From a virus: a stretch of 48,708 bases of DNA. The notes under the pieces are model-generated. The model worked only from the letters and a program-made list of their open reading frames with translations. It did not search any database and had not been told where the DNA came from. Position numbers and translations under genes: made by a program. Positions 991-45,233 of this stretch are shown piece by piece; the stretch's first letter is position 1; each line of letters begins with the position of its first letter. The stretch covers positions 1 through 48,708 of the IMG/VR virus record IMGVR_UViG_3300010354_000140, one strand, 5' to 3'.

Positions 991-3900
991 TCAGTTTGTA
1001 TAATTAACAAGAGAGCTGGCACGCCAGCGAGTGCCACCATCATCAGTAACAAAGAAAAAGAGATGTGTTTTGCCAGTGGTTAGCGAAGGTGCTGTATCTG
1101 CAGGCCATTTCACTGTCGTTGGCCAAGTAATTGTACCGCTCGTGTGAGTCAGCTCCAGCGTAAACGCAACGGCACGGCTTGTAGCAACATTGGAAAAGGT
1201 GAATGTACTATTTCCATTAATAGTTTTTGTGAAATAATTTCCAGCGCTGCAGTCAATATCCAAAGCTGAGACAGCCACCACTGTTTGCGCATAAGTGCCA
1301 GCCACGTCAAGTTTAGTATTTGCTGCAGCGCTGGACTGACCCACTGCAATTGAACTGGTCGTGGCAATGCTTCCACTTGTACTAATATTGCCACTTGTAA
1401 TTGCAGCGCCACTAACTTTGCCTGCAGTGCTAATAGTAGCAAGCTTAGTATCAGCAATAGCAGCAGAAGCACTAATGTCAGCATCAACAATGACGCCGGA
1501 CGTAATTGCAGCTGTTCCCGCAGACGAAATAGTGATGTCGCCGGACACCTTGCCAAAAGCATAGTCAGTAATACGGCTGGCAGCTGCTTTACGATTAGTT
1601 CCGGCCCCGCCATCGTCAACAATGAATAGATCAGCGTCAGCTAATGCGCTACCAATATCAGTGCCGCCATCAATATCTAACGCCGCTAAAGATACTTTAT
1701 TTGCCGTAGAAATTGCATTTAACTTCGTATCAGCAATAGACCCTGCAAGCATGGCATTGGTGACCGTGCCTGTGTCGCCATCAGTGATAACAGTACCAGT
1801 TACGTCTGGCAACGTAAGAGTTCTGCTGGAAGACAATGTCCCAGGGATCAACGTAACGCGAAGGTTCGTTGTACCTCCTGCACGCCCCCTTACTACGATG
1901 CCGTCTTGTGAGCTTGTTGCCGTCCCAAACGTTTGACCAGAAGCACTATGGAAGGTATTATTTCCAGTGAAAGCATTGTTATTAGCGGCGATAACATCAC
2001 CAGCTCCAGCAGTTGCCCAAGAAAGCACTCCATTTCCATCAGTACGCAGCACTTGGTTAGATGAACCATCACTACTTGGTAATGTCCACGTAACATTAGA
2101 AGCAACAACACTTGGAGCTTGGAACGCCACCCAATTACTGCTGTCAGCATCGGCAAATCGAAGCCCAGCTTGATTGTTCAACGTAACAGTGCCACTCGCA
2201 ACAACACCACTTCCCAGCGTTGTTATGCCAGCAACATTAAGAGTGCCTGGAAGCGCAAGATTGCTTGTCCATTCAGCAGCATTACCCGCTGCATTTGTCT
2301 GTAGCAATTGCCTGGCAGTGCCAAAGGCTAATTTACTTGCTGCAATTCCAGCGGCAGCATTGATATCGGCATTTACAATAACACCAGAACTAATGGCTAA
2401 AACACCACTTGCAGTGATAGTAGCATCACCACTTACTTTGCCAAAAATATAATCACCAATGCGGCTAATGGCCGATTTTCTATTTGTTCCATTTGCTCCA
2501 TCATCAACAACGAATAGATCAGTATCAGCAAGAGCCATGCCGATATCTGTGCCACCATCAATATCAAGAGCGGAAATTCCCACTTTATTTGCAGTGGAAA
2601 TTGTCGCAAGTTTTGTGTCAACGATGGCAGCAGATGCATTGATATCAGCGTTAGCGATTGCTCCTGAAAGAACCAAAGTGCCATCTCCGTCTGGCAGCGA
2701 GATAGCCCTGTCTGCACTTGGCCCAGTTGCAGTTAAAGTGGTTTCAAATCCATCGTCTGTAGTGCCCTCAAAGATAATACCAAAATTTGTATCTAAACTT
2801 AAATTACCAGTTAGCAAGCCCCCCGCTTTAGGAAGGGCAGCATTGGCTAAATCGTAAGCAGTTTTAACGGCGGTAGCAGTGGCAGCAAGAGTGCTACTCG
2901 TCGTGGAAATACTATCAGTTAGTTGAACAATGCCATCAACACTTGTAGTGGCGCTACGAATGGCAAGAGCTGGTGTGGTAGTTCCCCCTGAAACAGTTAA
3001 TGCCGCAGTGTTGCTTGTAACATTTGTAACAGTGCCCACATAGTCAGCACTCCATTCAAGGCCTGTAGTTGTAGAACTATTTGCCCTTAAGACATAGCCA
3101 TTTGTGCCAGCAGTGAGCTTTGCTAATCCAGTGGTCCCGCTAGCAACAATCAAATCGCCTTTGGCATAGCTTGATAAGCCAGTGCCACCGCGTGCCACTG
3201 CTAATGTGCCGCTTGACAAATTGCTGGCATTTGCAGCTTCAGCGGCTACTTCCTCAATGGCTAATTGTACATTTGTCGATCCAATTGTTCCGGCAGGAGT
3301 GAATCCAACAATAGATGCAGTTTGACTGGTATAAGTGCTGGAAACATCCACTTCAGTCCACGCGCTCCCATCGCAAAGAATGATATCGGGCGGATTTAAA
3401 GCAGTTGTTGGAGCTGGAGCAACGCCAGTACCGCCACTTGCGACAACTAAGTAGTACGAACTAAAAGTTGCCGATGCTAACGGAAGGCCACTGCCAGCAA
3501 CAAGACCAGCAGCAGTGCCTACCGTAGTAGCCGAAGCAACCACATTTAAATTAGCATTGTAAGTTCCGGCAAAAACAATTTCCCCTAAACTTACACCAAC
3601 TGGCTGCCAAACGTTACCATCCCAAAGGTAGATATTTTTATCTAATGGATTAAAGAAGAATTGGCCAATGTGGTCAGCAGTTGGTAGTGCTTCGCCAATC
3701 TTTGAAACAGAATAATTGGCAAGCTTCGCTCCAGTAATAGCGTCGTTAGCAATCAGTGCAGTGGTGAACTCCCCAGCAGTAATGACGCTTGCATTTAACG
3801 CTGGAATATCGCTAGCAGTTAATTGGCTGCCAGATGCAACATGTCCTTGATCATCAATGGTGACTTTTGTATAAATGCCACTAGCAACACTATTGCTATG

Positions 3901-6324: not shown

Positions 6325-6354
6325 TTCCGATGAAAGCTATATTATCCTCTAAGT

Positions 6355-7221
6355 CTAATCATCAATTTCCTTCAACAGGAAGTCAAGAGAAGGCTCAATG
6401 ATTATCTTGTCATCATTTTCCTGCAGAACATAGCCAACTGGAGTGCCTACTAATAGCTTGATTTCGCCAGTTGTAACAAAATCAATGGAGCAAGAAATAA
6501 GCTGTCCAGCATCCACTTCTACGCCAGCGCGTGTAACAACTCCCGTAAATTCATAAAACACATTATCAGCCCTTGAATCTACCGTCTTATCAGTGACATA
6601 CAATGCGCAATCGAAAGCCGATCCAATGTCAACGCGCTGGATAAGTTGCAGCATTAATAATGGCGTTTCACTTATGCCGGTAGTGGCCGATGAAAAGAGG
6701 CAATCAATGCTGCCATTGCCGCTAATAAGTCCAGCGCTATACTGTTGCTGAAACTTATCTGCTAGCGAAGTGGAATCAACAGCTTCTCTACTTGTGTTTA
6801 AAGAATAAGACTCCACGTCTCCCAAGATATTGTATGACGTATCTCTTGTCCTAACCGTCACTGGAATTGGAATGCCGCTGAAGCTAGTTAAAGCATATTC
6901 ATTTGCTCTTGTATTATTAACTGCATCAGCAAAAGAAGCGAAAAACCTTAAGCCCCCCATTGCATTGACATTGACATAAGCCTGAATAGTATTTTCTACT
7001 TGATTACTCGACCATGCACTTGGATTGATAAAAAGCAATCCTCTACTGTCGCCTGTTTCAATGATGACAGAATCTCCCGTTAAAAGATTATCAAGCGAAC
7101 CATCAAAGCCAACTCTTGCAAGCACTGTATTAATATCGTCAGGAGCTATGGCGCTATCAAAAGAGGCTGCATTAGCTCTACGCAAACGAACATTGCCCGC
7201 ATGACCAGCAAAGTAAGTCAT
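6355..7221 (-). CDS. Tail-tube-like structural protein, 288 aa
   Basis: ATG start at 7221, nine bases after the stop of the preceding 145-residue gene. The second half (about residues 130-240) has the pattern of a phage tail-tube protein: a VESYSLNTSREAVDSTSLAD strand-turn, then a GNGSIDCLF strand and later a CSIDFVTTGEIKL strand. The same pattern occurs in the adjacent 145-residue protein (WSLETSVELLDISTIDN, GSATLMYY). The N-terminal 120 residues are additional. Lying downstream of the J-like tip gene, it may be a tip or distal-tube component rather than the main tube. No exact homologue recognised. Confidence 0.6.
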   Translation of the reverse strand: MTYFAGHAGNVRLRRANAASFDSAIAPDDINTVLARVGFDGSLDNLLTGDSVIIETGDSRGLLFINPSAWSSNQVENTIQAYVNVNAMGGLRFFASFADAVNNTRANEYALTSFSGIPIPVTVRTRDTSYNILGDVESYSLNTSREAVDSTSLADKFQQQYSAGLISGNGSIDCLFSSATTGISETPLLMLQLIQRVDIGSAFDCALYVTDKTVDSRADNVFYEFTGVVTRAGVEVDAGQLISCSIDFVTTGEIKLLVGTPVGYVLQENDDKIIIEPSLDFLLKEIDD

Positions 7222-7230
7222 TCTTAATAA

Positions 7231-7668
7231 TCAGGAAATGACGCCATTAGTCAGAAAATCACCATCCACTGTAAATGAAATTTGTACCTGCGTAATTTCT
7301 CCAGTACTCACGCCAACAGTGGCTTGATTAATATAAGCATAAAACTGAATATCATCACCCGCATTTGTGCCCACTTTCAAAGTGAGCAATACTTTGTCAC
7401 TTTCTGTCACATCGCCAACTTTTTGTATTTTGCTTAGCAAATCAGTGAACGGGGCATAAGTGGTTGATTCGCCAGATTCAAGACGATAGTACATTAAAGT
7501 GGCGCTACCAGTGGAGCTTTTACGCCCTGGAATAAATTTACTGGCACAATTGTCAATAGTAGAAATATCAAGCAATTCAACAGACGTCTCTAACGACCAA
7601 TCGCGAACTTTGGCAACTGGCTTGCCACCATAAACAATAGAGCCAGTGCAACCGGTATAGTAAGCCAT
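7231..7668 (-). CDS. Tail-tube-like protein, 145 aa
   Basis: Starts MAYYTGCTGSIVYGGKPVAK from the ATG at 7668; an in-frame TTG two codons upstream is less likely. A small beta-barrel pattern is visible: GSIVYGG, VRDWSLETSVELLDIS, GSATLMYYR, a charged middle, then TQVQISFTVDGDFLTNG at the end. This resembles the tail-tube (gpV/TP901 tube-like) fold, in which a W-S-L strand and an L-D-I/T-S turn precede a glycine loop. It sits between the J-like gene and the 288-residue paralogue-like gene, an unusual place for a main tube protein. The call is by pattern only. Confidence 0.6.
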   Translation of the reverse strand: MAYYTGCTGSIVYGGKPVAKVRDWSLETSVELLDISTIDNCASKFIPGRKSSTGSATLMYYRLESGESTTYAPFTDLLSKIQKVGDVTESDKVLLTLKVGTNAGDDIQFYAYINQATVGVSTGEITQVQISFTVDGDFLTNGVIS

Positions 7669-7689
7669 TGCCAATCATTTATATTGCGA

Positions 7690-10600
7690 TCAGTCTAACA
7701 CTTCAAATAGTGATGCAGGACTTGTCGGTAATGACAATGACGTGCGAATAGGCTCTTTTTTTGTTATCGGCTCCGTTTGCGTGCCACTTAAATTTGTAAC
7801 ATTAGTAATTTTGCTTCTGCCATCGGCGAGAGTAGGATGTTCAATTGCTCGAACAGTCACTTCTCCCTCTTCGTCCATTTCCACTTCTGTCACCTTAAAG
7901 ACCCTCTTTTTCTTCACTTGACTTCCCAGCACGAATAGCCATCCTTCGTAAGAGCTTAATCCCGCCGCAACATTTGAAGACACATTTGTTGACAATGAAA
8001 TGGGCGCAGCATCAGGAGAATACACAAGAAAACTATACGTGCCATTGATAACTGTTTGAGAAAGGGGAAGATTCAGCGCCCCATTCTTTTCAATGCGTCC
8101 GCTATAAATGCCTTCCCAAGAGGTGTTGCCAATATCCACGTAAATATAGGCGCCGGGCCTTAACGGGGAATTGGTGGGAAATGTTTTGAACTCTACATTT
8201 CTTTTTACGTGACGCTTTTGCTGACAAAGAAACTTCGCAAACAAAATTGCCTGGTCTCTACTTGTCACGTAATCAGAAAGGTCGTAAGTTTGCCTAAATC
8301 CAGAAATATCTGTCACTCCAGCAAGTCTCACTTCAACGCTTTTATTTCTAGGGAATGTCTCATTGGTTTCTGTGCTGCGATAAATGACATTGGCAATCAA
8401 ATCTTTAGCGTCAGTGCCGTAATCAATAAGCTCTTCTTTATATGAATCTTCAAGAATGTTGCCAGCATTAAAGAGTGCAGTGACGCTTAACTGCGAATCA
8501 ACTACAATACTGCCACTGCCGTCCACGGGCATCATTGGAATGAGAGTCTCACGGCCTCCAATACGTGCCATTTCTAACAAGCTATAAGCTGCTGCTTCCA
8601 CCCAAAAATCTCGCCATCCCCTTGGATCACTGTTAATGCCATCAAAGAAGAGCTGATTAACAATGCAAAACTTTTGCGCTATGGCCAAACTTTGATAATC
8701 AATGGCAGCAGAATTTGTAAACTGACCAATGCCATCAATAGGATCCAATGCTGTGTCAAGAAAAATTTCCGGCACATAGTTTGATGCTACATTTGGCGTA
8801 GCATTTGGCAGTCCCGTTGTAGTGTTAATACTACGCACGAGCCTTCCTTGATTAACGAATACGGTGAATGAACGCAAATCTTGCACCCCTTGGCCGCTAT
8901 ATGCATTAAATCCAACCAAGCTTAAATTGTTATAAAGACCAGCGTAATTTGCCAATGATTCCACTCGCTGCTCCGTTACGGCCGCAATTGTTATCTCTGG
9001 GCCGTTTTCAAAGCTGTAGCTAATTTGCGTGTCGCTTTTCATGGAGAATAATCCCCATTCACTTACCCCCCATGGACTTTTTTCAATGGGAGGAACCATT
9101 GGCTTGTCGCTTTTCGCCGTCCTTATGATTCCAATGAAATAAACTTGAGTGCCATCGTTATTTGTAACGACATTTGATGTTCCATTGTTTTCAATGTAAG
9201 CGTATGAAATGCCACTATTAAATCCATACTTACGCAGTTCGGCTGTAACCTCGGCAATAGGTTCAAACTTGAATTCCCACTTCACTCCATTGACTGGCGC
9301 GATAAAGTTAATATCAACAAAATTATCCTGATCGGCCTTTCTTCTTATTACAAAAATATAATTTACACGCTTGTACTGAGAAGACGCGCTCTCTCTGTAC
9401 CACATCCAGAAAAAGCACTGTCGATATTTGAGGCCGTTGTCCGATAATTTATACTTGCTTTCCTTGTTCTCTCCATATTCTTCTTGGCGCCCAGATATGC
9501 GTTGAAAAACCTTAGCCTTGAGAGAAAATCTAACAATGCGGCAGTCAGTAATTGTTTGATAGCTAGCTTCTTCAGTTTTGACTAAGCACTTTGTATTGAA
9601 ATAATCAGCAACATCTCCGGGGTTGTCAATTAATTCATCCAGTTCATTAATGCGGTTGAGATTTGATTGCACTTCTGTAACTAAAGCAGCATCACGTTCT
9701 GCTTCTTTTTGTCGATTACGTCCGCCGCCAGTAGCAGCAACTTGTTGCAGTATGCCGCTATAGGCATTGCTATTTTTCTCATTGATTAACTTCCTGATAA
9801 GCTTAATCTCCGCTCTTCCCTGCTTCTTGTTATTATCTCTCGGAGAAATAACATAGCCTTCTTTTACTCCAAACTCTTCAATGGCACGAGTGAGCTGTCG
9901 TTGTAGCTTCTTGATTCGCTTTTTTACATCTTTTTTCTTCCAGCCAGCTTCAAGATCTACATATTGATCCTCAAGATCATCAATTGCTTTTGCAAGTTCA
10001 GCCACTTTTGGATCGCTTAATGCTGAATTCGCCAAAGTATCTAAATACAGTTTTTCATCAACAGCGGAAAATTCGCCCTGGGGATTTTTTAAGGTTCTTG
10101 AATAATGCGTAATCGCATCAATCCAGTCCTCTGCTTGGTCAATACTTACCTTGATATTATTTAAATCCCCATTGATAAACGAATTGAAAATAAGATCGTC
10201 GTAAATTGGCGGAGGATTCAGCTGGATAAGCTTAATTTCTGCGTTTCTGGCACGCAAAGAATTTCGCTCATCTTGCCAAACTTTAATAATATTGTTAGGG
10301 CGTTGAATGTTGTAATCAGCACTGGGACAGACTCCCGTTTCAATGCATTCAAACACAGCCAATGAGCCGCTTGTCTCTAAAGACTGATCACCAGAAAGAC
10401 TAACAAGGCGAAACTTTGCGCTCCCTAGCTTGTAAGTGCCAGCAGCATCAATGCGACTCAGATAGCTTACTCTTTCTTCTTCTGCTGCTATTTTGGTCGG
10501 GCCTTGTTTTAGTGGACCTGCTTGATCAAAGCTAAGCGCTAGCCTTGTCCCCGTGGGGATAAGAGGTCTACTTGCTCCCCAATAAGAAGTGATAAATGAT

Positions 10601-35289: not shown

Positions 35290-35374
35290 GCCTTCGTAGC
35301 AGAACTGGTTTATGCAACGGATTTAAAATCCGTAGGGAATTTCTCCCATGCGGGTTCGAATCCCGCCGAAGGCA
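35290..35374 (+). tRNA. tRNA-Leu (anticodon UAA)
   Basis: Acceptor stem GCCTTCG (35290-35296) pairs with CGAAGGC (35367-35373), discriminator A, no encoded CCA. The anticodon stem is ACGGA/TCCGT with loop TTTAAAA, giving anticodon TAA (35324-35326). A class II long variable arm (AGGGAATTTCTCCC) and the T arm GCGGGTTCGAATCCCGC complete it. It reads UUA codons, which an AT-leaning phage in a higher-GC host would use often. It closes the plus-strand terminase transcript, immediately before a terminator. Confidence 0.95.
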
Positions 35375-36316: not shown

Positions 36317-36519
36317 GATTTGTATTCACTTACTACGCAGGTTTTAACAAAAGGCCTGTCAAGGCTTTCCAATGCATTAATAATCCATTCCTCTGCGTTT
36401 TTCACATCATGGAACACGTTTCGATAGCACCACCACAACAGCTCCTTCTCTTGCACTTCATACATGGCCTTACGAGGGTCAACAATTGATGGCTTCTGAA
36501 CAATGCGGAATTGAGCCAT
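36313..36519 (-). CDS. Hypothetical protein coupled to phosphoesterase, 68 aa
   Basis: Starts MAQFRIVQKPSIVDPRKAMY and continues with EVQEKELLWWCYRNVFHDVK and a helical NAEEWIINALESL. Ends in an ATGA overlap with the phosphoesterase start. The small alpha/beta pattern (beta strand, W-rich helix) resembles short phage proteins with a 'Y-x-V-Q-x-x-x' core, but I cannot name a family. Confidence 0.68.
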   Translation of the reverse strand: MAQFRIVQKPSIVDPRKAMYEVQEKELLWWCYRNVFHDVKNAEEWIINALESLDRPFVKTCVVSEYKS

Positions 36520-36548
36520 TTGCCAATGGAGAAGAAGATCATCATAAA

Positions 36549-36624
36549 GCGCCTAGGCAGGATTCGAACCTGCATCGCTCTGCAGCAGCAGTAGCCGTAC
36601 TTTCCAATTGTCTCGGACTAGGCG
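36549..36624 (-). tRNA. tRNA-like element with degenerate anticodon arm
   Basis: Acceptor strands CGCCTAG and CTAGGCG pair perfectly (seven pairs) and the T arm GCAGGTTCGAATCCTGC is canonical. T8, A14 and the D-loop GG are present. The middle (ACTGCTGCTGCAG) contains a CTG triplet run and does not form a clean five-pair anticodon stem with a seven-base loop, so I cannot read an anticodon. At 76 bases without CCA it is three longer than a simple tRNA. It may be a tRNA pseudogene, an expanded or atypical tRNA, or a tRNA-derived attachment remnant. Confidence 0.6.
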
Positions 36625-36673
36625 AAAGTTCTAAAGAGCCAGTGACCCCCAGGTTTGAGCATCGTGGAGAGGC

Positions 36674-36847
36674 TTAGGGGGTGTTAGATGGAGCAAGCGT
36701 GACTGGCCTACCGACAATCGGGCTGTGAGTTAACCAGGCGTATCCAAACAGAGGCTTACCCCAGGCCTTCGCGCTTGCCGAATGGGTCCCCGGCGCATCA
36801 GCGGCCAACTGAGCCCGATCAAAAGAGAGCGGGAACTCAACAAGCAT
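36674..36847 (-). CDS. Small unknown protein, 57 aa
   Basis: ATG at 36847, nine bases after the stop of the HU-like gene, suggests translational coupling. The reading gives MLVEFPLSFDRAQLAADAPG, THSASAKAWGKPLFGYAWLT and HSPIVGRPVTLAPSNTP. Higher GC than its neighbours. The eight-base inverted pair ATCGGGCT/AGCCCGAT (36717-36724, 36812-36819) lies within it. No family recognised. Evidence is the open frame and the position only. Confidence 0.45.
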   Translation of the reverse strand: MLVEFPLSFDRAQLAADAPGTHSASAKAWGKPLFGYAWLTHSPIVGRPVTLAPSNTP

Positions 36848-36856
36848 AGCGTCAAT

Positions 36857-37150
36857 TCATTCAACAGATTCTTCAATTGACAGCATCTTCCTTTTAAATT
36901 CTTGAGCAGGATCAAATCGAGCCACTTTTTTTTCTGGCACTGGAATACGTTGCTGTGTAGAGGGATTCATTCCTAAACGTGCTTTATGTACACGAGGCTC
37001 AAAGGTGCCAAATTTCTTGAATTTCACAGAGCGACCTTCTGCTACTGCCTCCATTACTACTTCCATGAAAACATCAATCATTCGACTAATATCTTTTTGG
37101 TAGAAATCAGTTTGAGCGGCAATGCGATTTACAACGTCAACCTTGTTCAT
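36857..37150 (-). CDS. HU/IHF-family DNA-binding protein, 97 aa
   Basis: ATG 37150 preferred to TTG 37156. The sequence MNKVDVVNRIAAQTDFYQKD, RSVKFKKFGTFEPRVHKARL and GMNPSTQQRIPVPEKKVARF is classic HU/IHF: helical dimer base, G-T-F strand and the R-x-G-x-N-P beta arm with the arm-tip proline. It would bend DNA in replication, transcription or packaging. It is followed in coupling distance by the 57-residue frame. Length close to host HU (about 90 aa). Confidence 0.9.
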   Translation of the reverse strand: MNKVDVVNRIAAQTDFYQKDISRMIDVFMEVVMEAVAEGRSVKFKKFGTFEPRVHKARLGMNPSTQQRIPVPEKKVARFDPAQEFKRKMLSIEESVE

Positions 37151-37180
37151 GAGCAATTAGCAATGATTTGAACTATAGCG

Positions 37181-37921
37181 TCAAGAACGACCATAACTTG
37201 GAAGATCATTATTTGCCGCCTCGAAAAAGGCAGGCATCCGGCTCCGCTGCGTATCATTCAGCTCCTCTGCTTTCCCTTTCTCAAACAAATTGTCGCTTTG
37301 ACGCAGCCAGAAATCTTTATCCAGCCATTTATCATTGCTTCCCTTAAGTCCGTCAAATGCCCATAATGCAGTGGCACGACGCAATTTGTTCAAGCTTTCG
37401 CCAGCCTTTTCTTCAAGCTCCGTAGCAACAAGACTATGCACTCCCACATGCGTAATCTCATCACGACTAATGTCAGCAGCTACTGTGCGAATACCAATGT
37501 CTCCGTTAAAACGAAAAAATGGCAATGCAACAAAGAAAATACTCCGTTCCAAAATGGCAGCTTTCAAAATAGGGTGGGCAGGATGCTCTTGCCAAGCTTT
37601 CAAAATATTTTTAATTTCCTTCTCTGCTTTGTCATTAGTGCCATGCGCAGCAGTTACATAGTTCAGTGCTTCATCATGCCGCTGCTCGTCTTCCTGATTG
37701 TGACGAAGAGCTTCAACAACGCCAGGCGTAGAAGGCAAATCACGAGCTAGCCCCTGCTCCAGAAAGTCCTTCACGGGCAGCTCCAAATGACGCAATGCAA
37801 GAAGAGAATAAATAGTATCCTCGCCGCCTTCCTTAAGCTTGCCTTTGCTAACGGGCACAGCTTGCCACGGACGCTTCTTGGCGATCATCTGCAAATAGGG
37901 GCTCTTCGTTGCGACAGTCAT
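37181..37921 (-). CDS. nrdB: Ribonucleotide reductase beta subunit, cyanophage type, 246 aa
   Basis: Ferritin-like metal motifs: E79-x-x-H82 (EDEQRHDEAL), E125 (ILERSIFF) and E155-x-x-H158 (ISRDEITHVG). Shorter than cellular NrdB (about 375 aa). The residue four after the first motif's His, where standard class I beta carries the radical tyrosine, is Leu (L86), so a classical tyrosyl radical is unlikely at that position. Located 68 bases downstream of nrdA; a terminator-like hairpin lies between. It should assemble with the short alpha subunit to reduce ribonucleotides for phage DNA synthesis. Type assigned from size and motifs. Confidence 0.86.
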   Translation of the reverse strand: MTVATKSPYLQMIAKKRPWQAVPVSKGKLKEGGEDTIYSLLALRHLELPVKDFLEQGLARDLPSTPGVVEALRHNQEDEQRHDEALNYVTAAHGTNDKAEKEIKNILKAWQEHPAHPILKAAILERSIFFVALPFFRFNGDIGIRTVAADISRDEITHVGVHSLVATELEEKAGESLNKLRRATALWAFDGLKGSNDKWLDKDFWLRQSDNLFEKGKAEELNDTQRSRMPAFFEAANNDLPSYGRS

Positions 37922-37960
37922 TTTCGTAATACGCGCTAAAATTCGGAAGTGAGGAAAGCA

Positions 37961-37990
37961 AAGGGGGCCTTTGAGCCCCCTTCTTTTTTT
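37961..37990. terminator. Bidirectional-type terminator between nrdA and nrdB
   Basis: AAGGGGGC-CTTTGA-GCCCCCTT forms an eight-pair stem (37961-37982). Rightward it is followed by TTCTTTTTTT, a strong T-tract; leftward the tract is TTTGCTTT, weaker. It sits directly after the nrdA stop. In the leftward direction it could reduce nrdB expression relative to nrdA. Confidence 0.65.
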
Positions 37991-39441
37991 TATTCTGCGC
38001 AGCTGCTACAGAATCCAGCCTCTAGATTACAAGACATTGAAGGGCCTTCAGCTTCAGACTCGTCGTCTAAGCCAAACATGCTCTTAAAGTCGTCATCCAA
38101 TGCAGCGTATGCATCATCCTTCCGTTGAGTGTCCGGAAGAACTTGCAAGCTGTAGTACAGGCTCGTCTGAGGAGATTCTAGCCAATCACGAAGAAACTCT
38201 TCGTCGTAAATAACCATATCTGACCAACTGTTATACGAATAGCCATGGAAAAGACCAGTGCGCTGATATAACTGAACAATGCCATTTGCTACGCGCTTGT
38301 AATTAGTCCAGCCCACTTCTGCAGCCGTTTCCACTTCGCCATAGTCAAAACTTTCCACGCCAAACGTGCCAGAGTCTCGATCAACATGACGCGCAATAGG
38401 CGGAGCAATTTCAGGAGCCGTAGTAAAGCCCCGAGTGTCAAGATAACGATAAGAACACGATGCAGTGGGAGCAATGCAAAAGGCACGTTCCATCTGATGC
38501 TTCCTAGCAATCACTGCTGCGCCCATAATTCCCCTATGCAAAGCATATACCGCCTTGCCAGCCGTCGTATTCATCCAGAATTCCCGCCAATTTGTCGCAT
38601 CATCAATTAAATAAGCATCCAGCGCATGGCCAAATTCTTCATAACTAATGTCATGAATGGCAAGGAAATTAGCTAGGCCAAGCACGCCAAGTCCCACTTG
38701 CCTGTCAATGGAAGGAGGAAGATATTCGCCCGTATCACCCACGCCAGTTGTAGGATGCAGCTCGCACAATTGCTTCATGCCTTCCATAAAGGCACCTTCA
38801 ACATTGTCAATTGAGCAGGCGCCAAGATTAATATGTTGCAGCAGGCAAGTGCCACGATGCGGAAGATAAACTTCCAGGCAAACATTTGCACGAATGCGCT
38901 CACCTTGCGCATTAAAGCGAATCTTATTCAGCCAAATATCTCCACTACCAATTCCCTTTAACAATGCAGCACGGAAATCAGCAGTGGTTTTAGCCAGAAA
39001 ATCTTGATCCACGTTAATACAACGCTTCACCCAAGGCAGTTCATTTCGCGAAGCTTCAACAAATTCCAGAGCATCAGGATGGTCATAGTCAATATGCAAA
39101 ACTACGGCCCCGTTCTTATAGATGCCTCCTCGGCGCAAAATTTCATTAAGCGTGGAATAAATCTTGCCGAAGCTTACTGGCCCGCTTGCAACCAAGCCTT
39201 TGCCATTTTCAGCATTCCTTTCACGGAGAGAAGACAAATGAACAGCGACGCCCGCACCATTGCGCAGCCCGTGACTAACAAACCGCCAAGATGCTTCAAT
39301 ACCATCTGGCCCCTCCATTGAATCCTCTACGTTAAAAACAGTGCAGCTAACGGGCAGGCGACTATCAGGATTATTCAGCCAGTCTTCTACGCGTCCAGTT
39401 CGTGCAATTGCTTCGCAGCGTGCTTTTTCTTTGAGAGCCAT
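37990..39441 (-). CDS. nrdA: Ribonucleotide reductase alpha subunit, compact cyanophage type, 483 aa
   Basis: ATG 39441 is preferred to TTG 39450. Active-site parts are visible in order: SCTVFNVEDS (first redox Cys), a ten-strand barrel, RANVCLEVYLP (the N-x-C-x-E thiyl centre), CLLQHINLGAC (second redox Cys), APTASCSYRYL (substrate phosphate loop), TSLYYSLQVLP (the Tyr-Tyr relay pair of class I) and a C-terminal CSSCAE. The protein lacks an N-terminal ATP cone. The tyrosine pair and adjacent beta gene indicate a class I enzyme even though the size resembles class II proteins. This compact group in marine cyanophages was first called class II and later reassigned to class I (established knowledge). 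Confidence 0.87.
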   Translation of the reverse strand: MALKEKARCEAIARTGRVEDWLNNPDSRLPVSCTVFNVEDSMEGPDGIEASWRFVSHGLRNGAGVAVHLSSLRERNAENGKGLVASGPVSFGKIYSTLNEILRRGGIYKNGAVVLHIDYDHPDALEFVEASRNELPWVKRCINVDQDFLAKTTADFRAALLKGIGSGDIWLNKIRFNAQGERIRANVCLEVYLPHRGTCLLQHINLGACSIDNVEGAFMEGMKQLCELHPTTGVGDTGEYLPPSIDRQVGLGVLGLANFLAIHDISYEEFGHALDAYLIDDATNWREFWMNTTAGKAVYALHRGIMGAAVIARKHQMERAFCIAPTASCSYRYLDTRGFTTAPEIAPPIARHVDRDSGTFGVESFDYGEVETAAEVGWTNYKRVANGIVQLYQRTGLFHGYSYNSWSDMVIYDEEFLRDWLESPQTSLYYSLQVLPDTQRKDDAYAALDDDFKSMFGLDDESEAEGPSMSCNLEAGFCSSCAE

Positions 39442-39468
39442 AGACAACAAAAGAGGCCTTCCGGCCTC
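39442..39468 (-). terminator. Terminator-like hairpin just upstream of nrdA start
   Basis: GAGGCC-GGAA-GGCCTC (GNRA-type loop) followed by TTTTGTTGTCT, then ATG of nrdA. The same arrangement (hairpin, T-rich stretch, start codon) occurs at 20676-20703 and 46105-46143. It could end transcription from the right or act as an attenuator in the nrdA leader. Confidence 0.55.
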
Positions 39469-39535
39469 CGAAAAACCAACTGCATAAAGCTAACGCAATT
39501 AGTCCATGCAAAAGCAGAAAATTCCCTTACGCTTC

Positions 39536-39727
39536 CTAGTCACAAAGATTCTCCTCATCCTCATTTGAGACTAAATCTGCGACAAACAATCGCGCATCAT
39601 TTAACGAGCGGAAATAACAAGGCTTGCCATCTATTGCCGCAAACCATTGAAACTCTGGCTTACTAAAACATGGCCATAGTTTGTACTGGCCAATCATCAT
39701 TGGCTGACGCTCGGGAAGACTAAACAT
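39536..39727 (-). CDS. Hypothetical protein, 63 aa
   Basis: ATG 39727 preferred over TTG 39733. The sequence MFSLPERQPMMIGQYKLWPC, then FSKPEFQWFAAIDGKPCYFR and SLNDARLFVADLV, reads like a real small alpha/beta protein with a Y/F-rich sheet and one C-terminal helix. It lies 95 bases upstream of nrdA in the same direction. Family unknown. Confidence 0.6.
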   Translation of the reverse strand: MFSLPERQPMMIGQYKLWPCFSKPEFQWFAAIDGKPCYFRSLNDARLFVADLVSNEDEENLCD

Positions 39728-39803
39728 GGCCAATTCCGTATAGTCTCTCTAAGCTAATTGTTTCATTGGCCGCGAGAAGCAATTATTTATACAAACTTCT
39801 GTT

Positions 39804-40469
39804 TCACACGCGCAAGCTTTTCCTCCTTTTGTTTTGCTTCAATTCCCAGACTCTCTTTAGTCCATCAATTTCCTCCTGAGCTGCATCGCTAAGTTCCAGC
39901 CTCCTAGATTCTGTCTTCACAATTCTCCCTTCTTCAGCCAGAAGATTAATGCTGTTATAAATTGTCTTTGGCTTATAAAAACGATTAGCGGGATGCTTAA
40001 TCAATAATCCTGGATAGCAAACTTCGCCAGATTGGGCTAAGTCATCAATGGCCCACAAAATAAATCGTTCTGCATTTTTCACAAAACCAGGAAGCTCATT
40101 GTCCATGCAGGCCTCTATAAGCATTTGCTGCTTATTTGGTTCGGCTGGAGACCAACGCAAACGACGATGCTCAAAAGAACAATTTCGCTTCAAAAGCAAC
40201 GTTTCGCAAAGTGCTTCACTCTCCAAAAATCGCTTCAGCTTAGGACGCAGCACATACCAATTATCAAACTTATGACAATCGGCAAATTTCTCCGCCAGCT
40301 CCTTCTCTTTCCTGCCTGCTGCCTGAAAAGCTTTCACGACTACCAGCGGATCGTGATGAGCACGCAACAGTCCTTCCAACAATGCAGCAGGATCGTCCGT
40401 GCAATCAAGCCGCAGCATCGTATCGCTCGAAGCCCAATGGGAAAAAATCAGCCATTTGGCACTGTTCAT
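39804..40469 (-). CDS. Unknown protein with winged-helix-like C-terminus, 221 aa
   Basis: Start placed at ATG 40469; an ATG at 40502 inside a palindrome would add 11 residues. The N-terminal half is charged and helical (LEGLLRAHHDPLVVVKAFQA, AGRKEKELAEKFADCHKFDN). The C-terminal part NAERFILWAIDDLAQSGEV and YNSINLLAEEGRIVKTESRR looks like a winged-helix DNA-binding domain: helix, T-I-Y-N-S-I-N-x-L recognition-helix-like, then wing. As the first gene leftward of a 600-bp control region it may bind that region; replication initiation or transcription control are both possible. Confidence 0.55.
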   Translation of the reverse strand: MNSAKWLIFSHWASSDTMLRLDCTDDPAALLEGLLRAHHDPLVVVKAFQAAGRKEKELAEKFADCHKFDNWYVLRPKLKRFLESEALCETLLLKRNCSFEHRRLRWSPAEPNKQQMLIEACMDNELPGFVKNAERFILWAIDDLAQSGEVCYPGLLIKHPANRFYKPKTIYNSINLLAEEGRIVKTESRRLELSDAAQEEIDGLKRVWELKQNKRRKSLRV

Positions 40470-40493
40470 CCTGATACAAGAAAAACCCACATG

Positions 40494-40514
40494 CCCGATC
40501 ATAGCAGGATCGGG
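40494..40514. promoter_or_regulatory. Inverted repeat overlapping a leftward -10-like box
   Basis: CCCGATC and GATCGGG flank a seven-base centre that holds, on the minus strand, TATGAT, a good -10 box. The -35 region is poor. It sits just upstream of the winged-helix-like gene. The geometry (operator over -10) suggests a repressor site, perhaps autoregulation; inferred. Confidence 0.45.
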
Positions 40515-40859
40515 AACACTGGGAAAAACAGCAGCCCAACGGCGAGTGTTATGATAGCCATAAGCGGAGCAGCGTCTAGCATTCTTCTAGTAACGCTGCT
40601 AAGCCAGTGCCGCTAGATCAGTCACGTTCTCGACAAGTGAAGTCCCTAAAGGACGGAACGATGCCCAGGAAAGTGACGATGCACTAAAAACTAGACTAGC
40701 CGCGTTACTTGACTAGCCCCCCAAGGGCGATGCACCAAAAAGCGGCGGAAAACAAAAAAGCTAGTAAAACAAAAGATCTAGCGAAACAAAAAAAGGCTGC
40801 ACTAGACCCTATGTAATAGTGCGCTGAAATTGTGCGTACCAGCGGGACAGGTTTAAAAA

Positions 40860-40869
40860 CAGGAGGTGA
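40860..40869 (+). other. Perfect Shine-Dalgarno sequence without a gene
   Basis: AGGAGGTGA, a nine-base complement to the 16S tail, lies after a purine-rich stretch, but no start codon with an open frame follows within 30 bases; the nearest (GTG inside the motif) yields only six codons before a stop. It may be a leftover leader, or have another role. Confidence 0.35.
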
Positions 40870-40921
40870 CAATATTTAGAAAGTAGGAACGGCGGCTTTA
40901 GGGCCGCCTTTAGCTAGACCA

Positions 40922-40971
40922 AGAACAATGAAAAGGGAATGCTGATAATTGTTTTTTCTAATAATTGTTCT
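40922..40971. repeat. Direct and inverted repeat cluster upstream of plus-strand HNH gene
   Basis: ATAATTGTT occurs at 40945-40953 and 40961-40969 (period 16). AGAACAAT (40922-40929) is the inverse of ATTGTTCT (40964-40971). The arrangement resembles a set of operator half-sites in the control region before the HNH gene at 41103. No clear sigma-70 promoter was recognised in the gap to 41102. Confidence 0.4.
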
Positions 40972-41102
40972 CCACTCCGCCTTTGGGGCTACGTTCGCTA
41001 GATAGCAGGAAACGCTTCATCTGCGCTCTCTGCGAGAGCTTGATTCAGCGTATAAACACTACGTTTTGCTCGCTATAGTCTCGACAGTATTTCCCTCGCA
41101 TC

Positions 41103-41582
41103 GTGATTGAAGGCCAAATCTGCTCTAAATGCTTGCTTTATAAAAGCATTGATCGGTTTCCAAGGAGCAAGAACGCTCCCAATGGCATTCACACGGAATG
41201 TAAACAATGCCAATGGCAATACAAACAACAAAACCCCGTGCTGACAATGACATGTAAAATGATTGCTCGCGCTCGCCAGCGGGCTCTCGATAAAAATCTT
41301 CCCTTCAACATAGATCATAAATACATTCGCTCTCTTGTTCCGTCCCATTGTCCAATATTTGGCACAAAATTAGAATGGTCGTGTTGTCGCGGTAATACTG
41401 GTGGCGGCCTCCCTAATAGCCCCTCCCTCGATCGCATTGACCCCTCTAAAGGCTACGTTAAAGGCAATGTGTGGATAATTAGTCATCGCGCTAATACCAT
41501 CAAAAATGATGCCTCTCACGAAGAACTAAAACTAATAACAAAAGCAGTGGGAGAAGCCCTCGTAAATAGTCTGGATTTTTGA
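41103..41582 (+). CDS. HNH-type endonuclease with N-terminal zinc ribbon, 159 aa
   Basis: GTG start at 41103. Residues 6-40 hold ICSKCLLYKSIDRF and HTECKQCQWQY, two C-x-x-C pairs forming a zinc ribbon. The C-terminal half has SHCPIFGTKLEW, then LPNSPSLDRIDPSKGYVKGN followed by VWIISHRANTIKNDAS, the conserved core of a phage HNH/endonuclease VII-like nuclease group. These often act as mobile or packaging-related nucleases. It lies on the plus strand between the CTAG-rich region and a GC-rich island, an isolated placement typical of free-standing endonucleases. No ribosome site is obvious. Confidence 0.78.
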   Translation: MIEGQICSKCLLYKSIDRFPRSKNAPNGIHTECKQCQWQYKQQNPVLTMTCKMIARARQRALDKNLPFNIDHKYIRSLVPSHCPIFGTKLEWSCCRGNTGGGLPNSPSLDRIDPSKGYVKGNVWIISHRANTIKNDASHEELKLITKAVGEALVNSLDF

Positions 41583-41964: not shown

Positions 41965-42261
41965 CTATTCTTCACATTCAAGGGCGAAAATGTGGCTGTT
42001 AATTTGCTCTTCAAGCTCAGAGATTGCACAGCGGATGGAGTAGCCGGAACCCCGGCAATCTTCTAGCGCATCGTATAACCTACTGAGCGCATCTTGTGCA
42101 TCTTCTAGGGTGGCAAATTCTGCGACGGTATCAGTGTGACCGCATTCTTCGGCGGTAAGGTAAAACATTTGTGGGATGGTGAGAGGGTAAACAATGCGGC
42201 CGCAATTGCGGCCGTTTTGATCACATGCAAAACGCTGATTTTTCGGCGTCAGTGTAGGCAA
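41965..42261 (-). CDS. Hypothetical protein, up to 98 aa
   Basis: From TTG 42261 the frame overlaps the Gp88-like gene end by 41 bases and runs through an 18-base palindrome. An ATG at 42168 would give 67 residues starting MFYLTAEECGHTDTVAEFAT. The body (LEDAQDALSRLYDALEDCRG, ISELEEQINSHIFALECEE) is acidic and helical with several cysteines. Family unknown; the start is uncertain. Confidence 0.5.
   Translation of the reverse strand: MPTLTPKNQRFACDQNGRNCGRIVYPLTIPQMFYLTAEECGHTDTVAEFATLEDAQDALSRLYDALEDCRGSGYSIRCAISELEEQINSHIFALECEE
42197..42214. terminator. 18-base perfect palindrome after the Gp88-like gene
   Basis: CGGCCGCAATTGCGGCCG lies six bases after the Gp88-like stop codon. It could fold into a strong stem. 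In the rightward direction it is followed by TTTT, in the leftward direction by a poor tract. May serve as a terminator or processing hairpin. Confidence 0.45.
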
Positions 42262-43114
42262 TGCCGTGGGGCAGTTTAAAGCGCAGCCCGATGATATGGC
42301 CGCCCATAGGATCAGCGGGGCGAAAATCAGTCAAATCACCATCACAAACAGGCAAAAAGGTTAAGTTATCACCGCCAACAATGCTTGTCACTTCCGCCAA
42401 TGTTGGCAGCGTTTTTCCCTTTTTCACCATAAAGGCGGCCGCAATGTTAACGCCATTTTTCAATGCATCGGCGGCAATCTTAAGATTGGCAGCATTCTGC
42501 CAACCGTCAAACGAGAACGTTAGGTGATAGCCTAAGCGGCGGCATTCTTGCCAATTGCGGCGGATTTTTGTGTAATCATAGAAAATTACACTCCGGCCAC
42601 TATCTCTAGAGATAATGTTGAAAATCTCGAAAATGTTACGCTGACCAATTGGCAGATCGTAACCGAACTTGCGGCGGCAAAATGTAGAAAATTCTGCCGT
42701 AACGTAAAAATCTACATTCTCCCACGCAATATCTGAGGTGCCATTCAAGCGTACGGCAATATCACCGTCATTTTTGTTTAGTTTGTCTAGAATCGCGCAA
42801 ACGAGAATCATAGAAAAACGCTTAGGGTCAGCAGCATAGGCTAAGGTGCGGCGAATTCTTGCGGCTTGTTTGTTTGTCATATAGACAGGATTCCCGGCAA
42901 AATGCAGGCAGATTTTTTTGCAATTGCCGGCGCCGGGGCAAACGTTAACGCCTGAAATATCGGCGGGCGCCAAATGTAGGATGTAGGTTTGGATGGCGCT
43001 TTTTTCTGTTTTAGGGTTGGTTGAGAGGATATCACGGTGGCTGATCTTATACTGTTTGGCCATGCTTGCCAAATCGGCAGGCATTTTTGCGCGAGAATTC
43101 AGAACTGCAGGCAT
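42221..43114 (-). CDS. Gp88-family phage protein, 297 aa
   Basis: The ATG at 43114 (MPAVLNSRAKMPADLASMAK) is preferred to an upstream frame extension. The region ILSTNPKTEKSAIQTYILHL, APADISGVNVCPGAGNCKKI and CLHFAGNPVYM matches the 'gene product 88' (GP88) family of mycobacteriophages and other phages. Its conserved C-P-x-A-x-x-C-K-x-x-C-L cysteine box (about residues 58-70) may bind metal. The rest is an alpha/beta domain with a VCDGDLTDFRPADPMG segment near the end. Function unknown in any phage I know of. Confidence 0.75.
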   Translation of the reverse strand: MPAVLNSRAKMPADLASMAKQYKISHRDILSTNPKTEKSAIQTYILHLAPADISGVNVCPGAGNCKKICLHFAGNPVYMTNKQAARIRRTLAYAADPKRFSMILVCAILDKLNKNDGDIAVRLNGTSDIAWENVDFYVTAEFSTFCRRKFGYDLPIGQRNIFEIFNIISRDSGRSVIFYDYTKIRRNWQECRRLGYHLTFSFDGWQNAANLKIAADALKNGVNIAAAFMVKKGKTLPTLAEVTSIVGGDNLTFLPVCDGDLTDFRPADPMGGHIIGLRFKLPHGIAYTDAEKSAFCM

Positions 43115-43154
43115 TTTTCTGTGGTGAAAATGTTTGTTTTGAATGTTTAGAAAA

Positions 43155-43319
43155 TCAGCGGCCGCTGATCTGCAGCAGACAAGCATCGGCGCTAGCGCCC
43201 GTGGCGCGGCAGGCTACAAAATGGCGCTGATCCTCCGATGCCAGACTGACAGCAAACAGGGCCAGCAGTGAACCGGCAAACAGGCCGGCGAGCTTGGCTG
43301 TGATGGCGGCGGCGTGCAT
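43155..43319 (-). CDS. Small protein with signal-peptide-like N-terminus, 54 aa
   Basis: From ATG 43319: MHAAAITAKLAGLFAGSLLA followed by LFAVSLAS and a short tail EDQRHFVACRATGASADACL with two cysteines. The hydrophobic N-terminus looks like a signal peptide or single membrane anchor. A longer in-frame extension upstream exists but looks non-coding. No ribosome site. It precedes the Gp88-like gene by 41 bases. Unknown; a periplasmic or membrane role is possible. Confidence 0.45.
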   Translation of the reverse strand: MHAAAITAKLAGLFAGSLLALFAVSLASEDQRHFVACRATGASADACLLQISGR

Positions 43320-43569
43320 GGTGGGGATGGTTTGAAAGGGGCCAGCGGATCGCTCCGCCGATGCCATAAACCATACAGGCCAAAATCGCGCAACGTATCG
43401 GCTCAGTGTGCGGAGATGATTCTGTCCACCATTGGCGGCCGTTGCCTTGACGGCAGGGGGGCCCATACGGTACGGGCACCCGCTTGCCTCCCATGGTCGC
43501 CACGACCCTTAGAACGATCGCGCCCGCGCGTACCATGGCGCCCACCATTGCGTCAAGCGTTGCAACATT

Positions 43570-43702
43570 CCGTCACACGGCCACAGCGCACAACGGTATC
43601 GTGATATCGCAGAACCGAGCGCAAGCTACTGTCACATTTTGTAACACGGCAGCAGGTATCACAGAATCGCCCAGAATCGCGAGATTGTCACAATCCGTCA
43701 CA
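43570..43702. repeat. GTCACA iteron-like repeats
   Basis: TGTCACATTTTGTAACA (43630-43646) and TGTCACAATCCGTCACA (43686-43702) share a 17-base plan: TGTCACA, four bases, GT[A/C]ACA, with the copies 56 bases apart. CCGTCACACGG (43570-43580) is a palindromic relative. They lie in a gene-free stretch (43320-44077) whose left part, to about 43560, is GC-rich and shows nothing else I can support. Confidence 0.45.
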
Positions 43703-43760
43703 GAGGCCGATACTACGGTTTGGCGATCGGGAATCAGGAGAATCGGGCAGGGTAGTGCAT

Positions 43761-43975
43761 GCGTACTATCAGCGCAGCTTATGGGAGCCATAGGCTCAGC
43801 TTATGGTACAAACGTACTGTGTGACAGTGGCGGACTGGCACAAGTGCAGGCGTACTATCAGCGGAGCTTATGTTACAGATAGGCAGGGCTTATGGTACAG
43901 GCGTACTAGTGAGCCTATCACGCTATCGTTATACGCGCATAGGAGCATAGGAGCATACTACGGTAGCGTTATACG
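43761..43975. repeat. 89-base tandem repeat array with GTAC-containing motifs
   Basis: GCGTACTATCAGCG[C/G]AGCTTATG occurs at 43761 and 43850. GCTTATGGTACA[AA/GG]CGTACT occurs at 43799 and 43888. All are offset by exactly 89 bases, so a ~58-base block is duplicated. CGTACT therefore appears four times with spacings 51, 38 and 51. Further on, GCATAGGA repeats in tandem (43938-43956) and [T/G]CGTTATACG at 43926 and 43966. No coding frame explains this. Confidence 0.6.
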
Positions 43976-44004
43976 ATTTTATGGGAATAGTGGGAAATTG
44001 CCTG

Positions 44005-44041
44005 ATACACCGCTGGCCAGGACATAAATACACCGCTGGCC
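44005..44041. repeat. ATACACCGCTGGCC direct repeat
   Basis: Two exact 14-base copies (44005-44018, 44028-44041), 23 bases apart, lie directly before the 3' end of the NUMOD4/HNH gene. They continue the repeat-rich region to its right edge. Confidence 0.55.
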
Positions 44042-44077
44042 GGGTCTTTTAGGCAGCTAGCCGGATCCGAAACGCCT

Positions 44078-44686
44078 TCAAACAATACATTTTCCATCCG
44101 GATCCAGCAATACTTTTTTCATCCGGACCCTTCCATTTAGATTGTGATCTTGATGACGCCAACTCTCAAAACGACACATTTTCTTAACTGCATTATGGGA
44201 AACTTTTAATTCTTTTGCAATGGAATAAGCGCTTTCTCCGTATTTAACGCGTAAGCGAATTGCTGTCACTTGCAGTGAGGTAAATTTAGCGTTTTTCTTT
44301 GCTTCGCCGCATGCTTGTAAGCCATTTTCCCATGCGTGTCTTATATTGTCACTGTTGGTTGTCCATTCAAGATTAGAAATGTGGCTATTGAGCTTGTTTC
44401 CGTCTTTATGGTTTACGCACCATTTGCTTCCGCCTATCCCAACTTCTCCAGGGGCGGGAGGCATCCAAGTAAGGCGCATCAAGTAATAGATAGTACGAGG
44501 TTTAGCTTTGTTATTTTCTCTCAATAACACCCATGGATAGGAATGAGTGGCGTCTGTTTGCGGACTCATGAGCCTTGATTTGGCTACGCTCCAAACCTCG
44601 CCTTTCTCATTGATGAAATAGCGTCCATCGTACCCAGGGATCTCCTTGAATCCTTCAGGCACACTGTTATGCTTATATTCAGCCAT
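44078..44686 (-). CDS. NUMOD4/HNH homing-type endonuclease, 202 aa
   Basis: ATG 44686 (MAEYKHNSVPEGFKEIPGYD) chosen over upstream frame extensions. NUMOD4 motif: EGFKEIPGYDGRYFINEKGE ending in VWSV. HNH: WCVNHKDGNKLNSHISNLEW and TTNSDNIRHAWENGLQ. A C-terminal part ASYSIAKELKVSH-like (SAYSIAKELKVSHNAVKK) is a helix-turn-helix. This is the standard architecture of free-standing phage HNH homing endonucleases. It adjoins the repeat-rich region, as mobile nucleases often lie in intergenic zones. Confidence 0.87.
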   Translation of the reverse strand: MAEYKHNSVPEGFKEIPGYDGRYFINEKGEVWSVAKSRLMSPQTDATHSYPWVLLRENNKAKPRTIYYLMRLTWMPPAPGEVGIGGSKWCVNHKDGNKLNSHISNLEWTTNSDNIRHAWENGLQACGEAKKNAKFTSLQVTAIRLRVKYGESAYSIAKELKVSHNAVKKMCRFESWRHQDHNLNGRVRMKKVLLDPDGKCIV

Positions 44687-44766
44687 GGCCAAACTGCTTC
44701 TTTGGTAGTGGTTAGAAACGATACGGGACTGGCATCTCGCATCGTTTCGCCATGCTAACAATTATT

Positions 44767-44925
44767 TCACCAGCTTTCTTTATTGTGCGCGGCCTCGATG
44801 GCCGCTTTTTCATGAGGATATGGCCCACCAACAATGCTTTCATTATCATCGTCGTAGAAATACCAACCTTCCACTAGTTCAGTGCCCTTACAGCAGTCTT
44901 CCGAGAAGAAATCAATGAGAAGCAT
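44767..44925 (-). CDS. Small protein, 52 aa
   Basis: Below 60 codons but clear: MLLIDFFSEDCCKGTELVEG, WYFYDDDNESIVGGPYPHEK, AAIEAAHNKESW. W-Y-F-Y-D-x-D...G-G-P-Y...E-K-A-A-I-E-A is a common pattern of short phage proteins. A hairpin GCGGCC/GGCCGC with T5 at 44789-44810 lies in its coding 3' part and is not taken as a terminator. Starts three bases downstream of the 101-residue gene's stop region. Confidence 0.65.
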   Translation of the reverse strand: MLLIDFFSEDCCKGTELVEGWYFYDDDNESIVGGPYPHEKAAIEAAHNKESW

Positions 44926-44927
44926 GA

Positions 44928-45233
44928 TCAAACTCTCTTAAATTTGGACAAAGACAGGTTCCAGAGTCCTGCGCTCATATCACCAGGACGATAAAGCACA
45001 TAAGAAGCCTTTTCTAGCACCATTCCACCTTCACCATCGGGAATAGCTTGTGCGTCATCTTGCCAAATGCCTTTGCATTGGCCATTATCGTCAAACACGC
45101 CTATTTCCCATTCATTGTCTTCCATGCATTGTCTCACGTGGAAGATGAGGTCTTTGAGAGAGGCTGCTTGGTAGCAGCCTTGCGTGGGAGGGAAATAGGG
45201 GCCATTGCCAGAGAAGCAGCGAACAGTGTGCAT
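44928..45233 (-). CDS. Hypothetical protein, 101 aa
   Basis: Starts MHTVRCFSGNGPYFPPTQGC and continues with YQAASLKDLIFHVRQCMEDN and WEIGVFDDNGQCKGIWQDD. Trp, Cys and acidic residues mix in a small alpha/beta protein. No family recognised. It belongs to the short leftward row with the genes at 45248 and 44767. Confidence 0.65.
   Translation of the reverse strand: MHTVRCFSGNGPYFPPTQGCYQAASLKDLIFHVRQCMEDNEWEIGVFDDNGQCKGIWQDDAQAIPDGEGGMVLEKASYVLYRPGDMSAGLWNLSLSKFKRV

Follow-up and report, generated by a model that had tools for sequence, protein, structure and literature searches.

What is the function of a compact repeat-rich block, at 43560 to 44060, in the genome of an uncultured phage? The window analyzed here is the whole 48.7-kb IMG/VR stretch in which this block lies. 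Its ribonucleotide reductase beta is 66.5% identical to that of Synechococcus phage S-CBS4, and the portal and terminase homologues of the two are 72–75% identical. Because the window is akin to S-CBS4, we infer that its host was among Synechococcus/Cyanobium. From the sequence alone, different repeat families lying side by side without a gene had been taken to resemble a replication origin, a partition site, or a packaging site. Our own answer, which is tentative and to which we give a little less than an even chance, is that the array is a control region linked to an origin and gated by host LexA. Second in rank comes a region that controls transcription only, and third an array of decoy sites.

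Position of the array and its conservation in relatives

The genes flanking the block on either side all point leftward (Table 1). On the left, the 54-aa ORF was kept in 16 relatives with 52–81% identity (tblastn). On the right, the HNH endonuclease gene was found in some relatives only and looks like an optional insert. Querying with the GP88 gene gave 39 loci of relatives; 9 were obtained with the 101-aa gene. Conservation of the block among relatives had been proposed as a check in the sequence-only reading, and it was found: in dozens of uncultured S-CBS4 relatives the block kept the same place between the GP88 gene and the 52-aa and 101-aa genes. One contig (L002 plus L041) was identical to the window across 2301 bp; in the counts L002 stands for the window and is not an independent relative. 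Dropping six arrays that were near-duplicates or too short reduced 42 arrays to 36 non-redundant ones. Each array segment comprised up to 1800 bp before the signature of the 52-aa gene, and some segments take in parts of neighboring genes. Two pattern scans of viral contigs gave six contigs each; four of these 12 were new and were kept outside the counts.

Among cultured phages only S-CBS4 (two records) matched, and only at the 101-aa gene. S-CBS4 (NC_016766) is the closest isolated relative, and the same genes flank the locus on both sides; however, its record breaks at this locus and contains neither GP88 nor the array. At the join of this "complete genome" (69420/1) the record ends inside the 101-aa homologue and restarts before ribonucleotide reductase. 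Because GP88 and the array are missing and the end falls mid-gene, the S-CBS4 record is probably not closed.

Table 1. Features of the repeat block and its surroundings (positions in the window)
Feature	Position	Strand	Remarks
GP88-family gene (Pfam PF17338)	42221..43186	−	Profile match 1.8e-21; left border of block
54-aa ORF, hydrophobic N-terminus	43158..43319	−	Overlaps 5' end of longest GP88 reading frame
Inferred rightward promoter-like element TTGACG-N17-GTACGG	43447..43475	+	21-sequence alignment
Inferred leftward promoter-like element TTGACG-N17-GTACGC, facing the rightward one	43528..43556	−	21-sequence alignment
Three pairs of 10-bp-spaced direct repeats (GCAACATTCCGTCACA, GTCACATTTTGTAACA, GTCACAATCCGTCACA)	43562..43702	+	
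Duplication, 89-bp offset	43754–43818 and 43843–43907 (span 43754..43907)	+	65-nt form, 53/65 matching
LexA-like box AGTACGCATGCACT	43754..43767	−	One mismatch to RGTACNNNDGTWCB
Four (A)GCTTATG elements	43776..43894	+	Palindrome ATAAGCTNAGCTTAT in relatives
LexA box AGTACGTTTGTACC	43805..43818	−	Exact match to RGTACNNNDGTWCB
Dyad TGTGACA-N9-TGGCACA	43820..43842	+	Between the two duplicated blocks
LexA-like box AGTACGCCTGCACT	43843..43856	−	One mismatch to RGTACNNNDGTWCB
LexA box AGTACGCCTGTACC	43894..43907	−	Exact match to RGTACNNNDGTWCB
TCGTTATACG / GCGTTATACG pair, GCATAGGA tandem in between	43926..43975	+	
Degenerate terminal repeats, ~20 bp: two ATACACCGCTGGCC units, then three weaker	44005..44127	+	
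HNH endonuclease gene	44078..44761	−	3' end enters terminal repeats
52-aa ORF	44767..44925	−	Kept in relatives; right border of block
101-aa gene	44928..45233	−	Conserved; S-CBS4 record stops within its homologue

Organization of the repeats

The block was as repeat-rich as had been claimed: its repeat density of 66 was the highest of all 500-bp segments (median 6), and 1000 dinucleotide shuffles of 43560 to 44060 gave densities of at most 22. In the related genomes G002 and G003 repeat density also peaked at the array. In G001 the density was highest at the array and had its next peak near 40.3 kb; the repeat-dense stretch there (~39950–40850) lies inside a long reading frame (36487–41487). 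Within the block TRF detected no more than two arrays, both short and weak, and a reading as a tandem-repeat array was rejected.

Most of the individual repeats reported from the sequence alone were present. The duplication at an 89-base offset is real: 47 of 58 bases agree in its best pair of 58-mers, and all other self-matches of that length in the window at offsets of 58–300 stayed at or below 37 of 58. CGTACT occurs four times (43762, 43813, 43851, and 43902; spacings 51/38/51), GTCACA occurs at 43572, 43631, 43687, and 43697, the GCATAGGA tandem occupies 43937–43957, and the 14-base ATACACCGCTGGCC is found exactly at 44005 and 44028. The TCGTTATACG copy at 43926 is exact, but the other, at 43966, has one mismatch. 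The division into separate, unrelated iterons did not hold, as the CGTACT, AGCTTATG, and TGTGACA elements are mostly half-sites of palindromes. Three units each contain two related 6-mers exactly 10 bp apart.

Alignment of 11 window-type arrays gave the order GCAACATTCCGCAACA, ATAACG/CGTGATA units, GTAACATT pair, AGCT palindromes, SOS box, TGTGACA/TGGCACA dyad, SOS boxes, GCATATGCGCATA, and terminal repeats. The arrays of relatives end in a related terminal-repeat set: a regular expression for these repeats gave 91 matches in the 36 arrays, compared to 29 in mononucleotide shuffles (maximum 42). It found none in seven arrays; part of the cause is that the end segment searched had a fixed length of 330 nt and misses repeats past an intervening gene. 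Array content is modular and changes fast, with quite different repeat families at the same locus in other relatives; examples are TAGCACGAGATGCTA, AATTGTTGATTATT, and GATAGCTAACCCTGTCGCAAGTAGG among L004, L018, L011, L017, L045, and L031. A search of four records for the array repeats elsewhere in the genome gave only short matches at chance level, leaving a single place per genome.

Coding capacity and RNA structure

The earlier description of the block as gene-free agreed with a gapless comparison of the window and L003 (83% identity across 364 bp). For the three ORFs inside the block, differences were spread evenly over the codon positions (21/22/19, 15/13/12, and 7/8/10), which ruled out a coding stretch; the neighboring GP88 gene had the pattern of a coding sequence (21/15/69). 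At the level of DNA sequence, the array is non-coding, fixed in position, and exceptionally dense in repeats.

That the array is a structured non-coding RNA is hardly credible. Its + strand does fold better than shuffled sequences (z −4.0), but both strands were alike in stability over 16 arrays (mean z −3.6 and −2.9). Such stability of both strands is expected of DNA palindromes and therefore counts against an RNA. The covariation term was +0.29, double changes were found in 7 of 74 pairs, and no Rfam match fell within the repeat region.

LexA boxes in the array

A 14-bp cyanobacterial LexA box, RGTACNNNDGTWCB, was reported for Nostoc in PMC3091678, and table 1 there gives CGTACGCCTGTACT as the recA box of Synechococcus WH8102. 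The four CGTACT sequences are halves of four 14-bp sites of this type, two exact and two with one mismatch, and the 51/38/51 spacing is therefore that of four SOS-type boxes. The box at 43894 has 12 of 14 bases in common with the WH8102 recA box as listed in that table. One further exact match in the window is far off, at 17812.

Exact boxes numbered 47 in the 51.6 kb of the 36 arrays and 2 in 274 kb of flanking DNA; the number expected in the arrays from 200 shuffles was 0.19 (maximum 2). At least one exact box was present in 22 of the 36 arrays, with a maximum of seven; the absence of any in the other 14 counts against an origin-linked region gated by LexA. GTAC-N4-GTAC was found 56 times in the arrays, and all other spacings from 0 to 14 gave 0 or 1, except for 12, which is the tandem period. 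Eight of 11 longer phage records had matches to RGTACNNNDGTWCB. For the seven relatives among these eight, every site but one was inside the array; S-CBS4, whose record is without the array, had two scattered sites. By motif, these sites are LexA boxes, and they are enriched in the arrays. The richest arrays are that of L042 (reverse complement of 6300–8157), with seven exact LexA boxes partly in tandem at 16 bp, and that of L043, with four LexA boxes and two FUR-family-like boxes.

In 31 genomes of the genus Cyanobium the host pattern RGTACNNNTGTACT had 105 matches, compared to 18 for the reversed control (both totals are sums over a per-genome table), and 26 of the 31 genomes were positive. 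Among 20 host loci that were read, umuD-like (4), dprA-like (2), and Hli-like (3) genes lay just downstream of the box. When one of each was checked against Pfam, S24 and DprA scored above the cutoff and Hli just below it. In the Cyanobium-genus loci L149, L152, and L156, LexA-type boxes such as GGTACACCTGTACT lie upstream of a high-light-inducible-like protein, and a link between SOS and photoprotection may exist in these genomes.

Host LexA is the likely binder of the array boxes, because no LexA DNA-binding domain scored above the cutoff in five phage records (the window, three relatives, and S-CBS4). Operators of a phage-encoded protein that acquired a LexA-like specificity by convergence are distinctly improbable. 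The other palindromes do look phage-specific, and many small phage genes are without assignment; nevertheless, agreement with the host box extends over the full 14 bp, with overlapping middle triplets, and the same five records argue against a phage protein with a LexA-type domain. A weak, below-cutoff match to the LexA domain in G002 (E 0.0135) counts against gating by host LexA. A tyrosine integrase was present in two of the five records (G001 and G002), and SOS-controlled lysogeny is therefore possible in part of the clade; that searches of G003, S-CBS4, and the partial window gave no integrase also counts against the LexA-gated reading.

Evidence for a replication origin

Of the three functions suggested from the sequence alone, an origin fits the array, which has a fixed place, a single locus, and a skew minimum; packaging and partition were unsupported. 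GC skew had also been proposed as a check, and its outcome was mixed. Four related genomes had the detrended circular cumulative G−C minimum at a distance of 0–3.4 kb from the array, actual or expected: in G001 it fell at 4019 (array at 5740), in G002 at 43609 (array at 41375), in G003 at 16860 (array at 13430), and in S-CBS4 at 69293, where the array would be expected at the join of the record. The raw curves were less clean, with one switch of sign near the array and another ~6–12 kb away rather than half a genome apart. The skew maxima were roughly opposite the minimum in G001 and G003 and far from opposite in G002 and S-CBS4. The four genomes share ancestry and are not independent, and the skew evidence is therefore suggestive only; on this basis, it suggests a replication origin near the array.

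A scan of the G001 proteins gave a RecA-like AAA_25 protein, a Sak annealing protein, and an exonuclease; no initiator protein was identified among them, and no classic DnaA-box cluster was identified. The raw skew switches, the non-opposite maxima, and the lack of an initiator among the proteins scanned count against an origin-linked array. In L047 (reverse complement of 3900–6500), TTTTCCACAGGCCTGTGGAAAA near position 250 forms an inverted pair reminiscent of DnaA boxes.

Iteron-type origins of plasmids and phages combine short direct repeats with palindromes in a block devoid of genes, near a GC-skew minimum. The array resembles them as a non-coding repeat cluster at a single locus, but its repeat families vary widely among close relatives and include host-type SOS operators.

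A packaging (pac/cos) or partition site is very unlikely. Either could appear as a repeat cluster at a single locus, and the S-CBS4 record ends at this one; yet that end falls mid-gene and has the look of a join left unfinished, the two ends of the G001 contig overlap by 127 bp so that no fixed end is seen, terL is ~9 kb off, and no partition gene was found among the proteins scanned.

Promoter-like elements

Alignment of the left part of the locus in 21 sequences revealed TTGAC-N17-GTACGG and its mirror image, the rightward −35 being absent in 5 of the 21. These elements bear on a second reading, rather unlikely in our view, in which the array is a plain transcriptional control region and the origin is elsewhere. 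It would lie upstream of a leftward promoter that serves the 54-aa ORF and GP88, and possibly of a rightward one as well, and would contain multiple operators at which LexA and phage regulators act on transcription. The TTGAC-N17 elements are conserved on both strands, the first 10-bp-spaced pair abuts the leftward −35-like box, and LexA-controlled phage promoters are known, such as P1 and P3 of GIL01. However, the −10-like hexamers GTACGG and GTACGC are poor, a simple promoter scan picked up neither of the facing elements, and arrays are present in L042–L048 although GP88 is absent or only distantly similar there. The scan was itself near chance (4 found, compared to 2.2 ± 1.5 in shuffles). 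This result, together with the distance of ~200–480 bp between the LexA boxes and the conserved promoter-like elements, also counts against the LexA-gated reading.

Other repeat families and host regulator sites

FUR-family sites resembling TTGAGAATNNTTCTCA were found in 7 of the 36 arrays; the window has none. A strict FUR-like pattern matched in 1 of 31 host genomes, and a relaxed pattern (≤3 mismatches) in 21 of 31, with 35 matches compared to 3 for the reversed pattern (both summed). Several of the relaxed matches lie upstream of znuA-like genes and one upstream of a cobW-like gene; PMC9337993 describes a Zur box between znuC and znuA in marine Synechococcus. On this evidence the FUR-family-like motif is a host-type metal-regulator site, although less securely so than the LexA motif is an SOS site.

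Other families were rejected as host regulator sites: ATAAGCTNAGCTTAT matched in 0 of 15 host genomes, and the dyad TGTGMCA-N9-TGKCACA and the TTTAGCA-N5-TGCTAAA of other arrays each in 0 of 31. An RpaB/HLR1-type site as an account of the 10-bp-spaced repeats was rejected as well (GTMACATTNCGTMACA, 0 of 31).

These counts bear on a third reading, a replication-amplified DNA decoy, which we consider improbable. In a decoy, a fast-evolving operator array would titrate host repressors as phage copies multiply (LexA and, for the arrays of some relatives, a member of the FUR family such as Zur), and host recA, repair, or metal-uptake genes would be released with no phage protein needed. The boxes, up to seven exact ones per array and partly tandem, are mostly away from any obvious promoter, and the relaxed FUR-like pattern is a real host motif. 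Against a decoy, most repeat families tested are no host operators, and many arrays have only one to three boxes. If this reading were true, each replication round would add sites and reprogram the host SOS and metal regulons without any protein.

Proposed control region and known systems

In the origin-linked, LexA-gated reading that we prefer, the array would act in cis as the control region of a cyanosiphophage akin to S-CBS4, and would most likely lie near the replication origin or belong to it. What we infer about LexA binding, its direction of action, and the other repeats is as follows. Phage-encoded proteins, initiators or regulators, would recognize the 10-bp-spaced GTNACA pairs, the AGCTTAT palindromes, and the ~20-bp terminal repeats. 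The host LexA repressor would occupy the 14-bp SOS boxes interspersed among these repeats, and phage replication or transcription from the array would be held back or modulated until DNA damage inactivates host LexA.

In CTXphi and SOS-controlled prophages, phage functions are repressed by host LexA; to our knowledge no such multi-family repeat array occurs in them. In GIL01, host LexA keeps the phage lysogenic by way of boxes in P1 and a tandem set in P3 (PMC4551915, PMC6182141). As described there, GIL01 shares with the array the use of host LexA boxes, in tandem in one promoter, as phage control sites. The GIL01 boxes, however, lie within the promoters P1 and P3, and LexA is aided by phage gp7, whereas here, in an unrelated cyanophage, a hypervariable array holds as many as seven, near a skew minimum and at a distance from promoter-like elements. 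A search of a limited body of literature, PMC6157547 included, found no such array described in cyanophages, which is not proof of absence. LexA-controlled phages are already known; the multi-box hypervariable form appears to be new.

If host LexA binds, uncultured cyanosiphophages would tie their life cycle to host DNA damage, such as that from solar UV, through DNA sites alone. Lysogeny control in cyanophages is poorly known, and the locus is short enough to be tested as a fragment in work on the origin and on the lysis/latency decision.

RNA genes elsewhere in the window

The window also contains a tRNA-Leu(TAA) gene (35290–35374, + strand) and a match to the Rfam abiF RNA (RF03085) at 36645–36681 on the − strand (52.9 bits, gathering 37), possibly a phage copy of the abortive-infection RNA. 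Beside this match is a small gene (36857–37156) whose product, by eye, looks HU-like.
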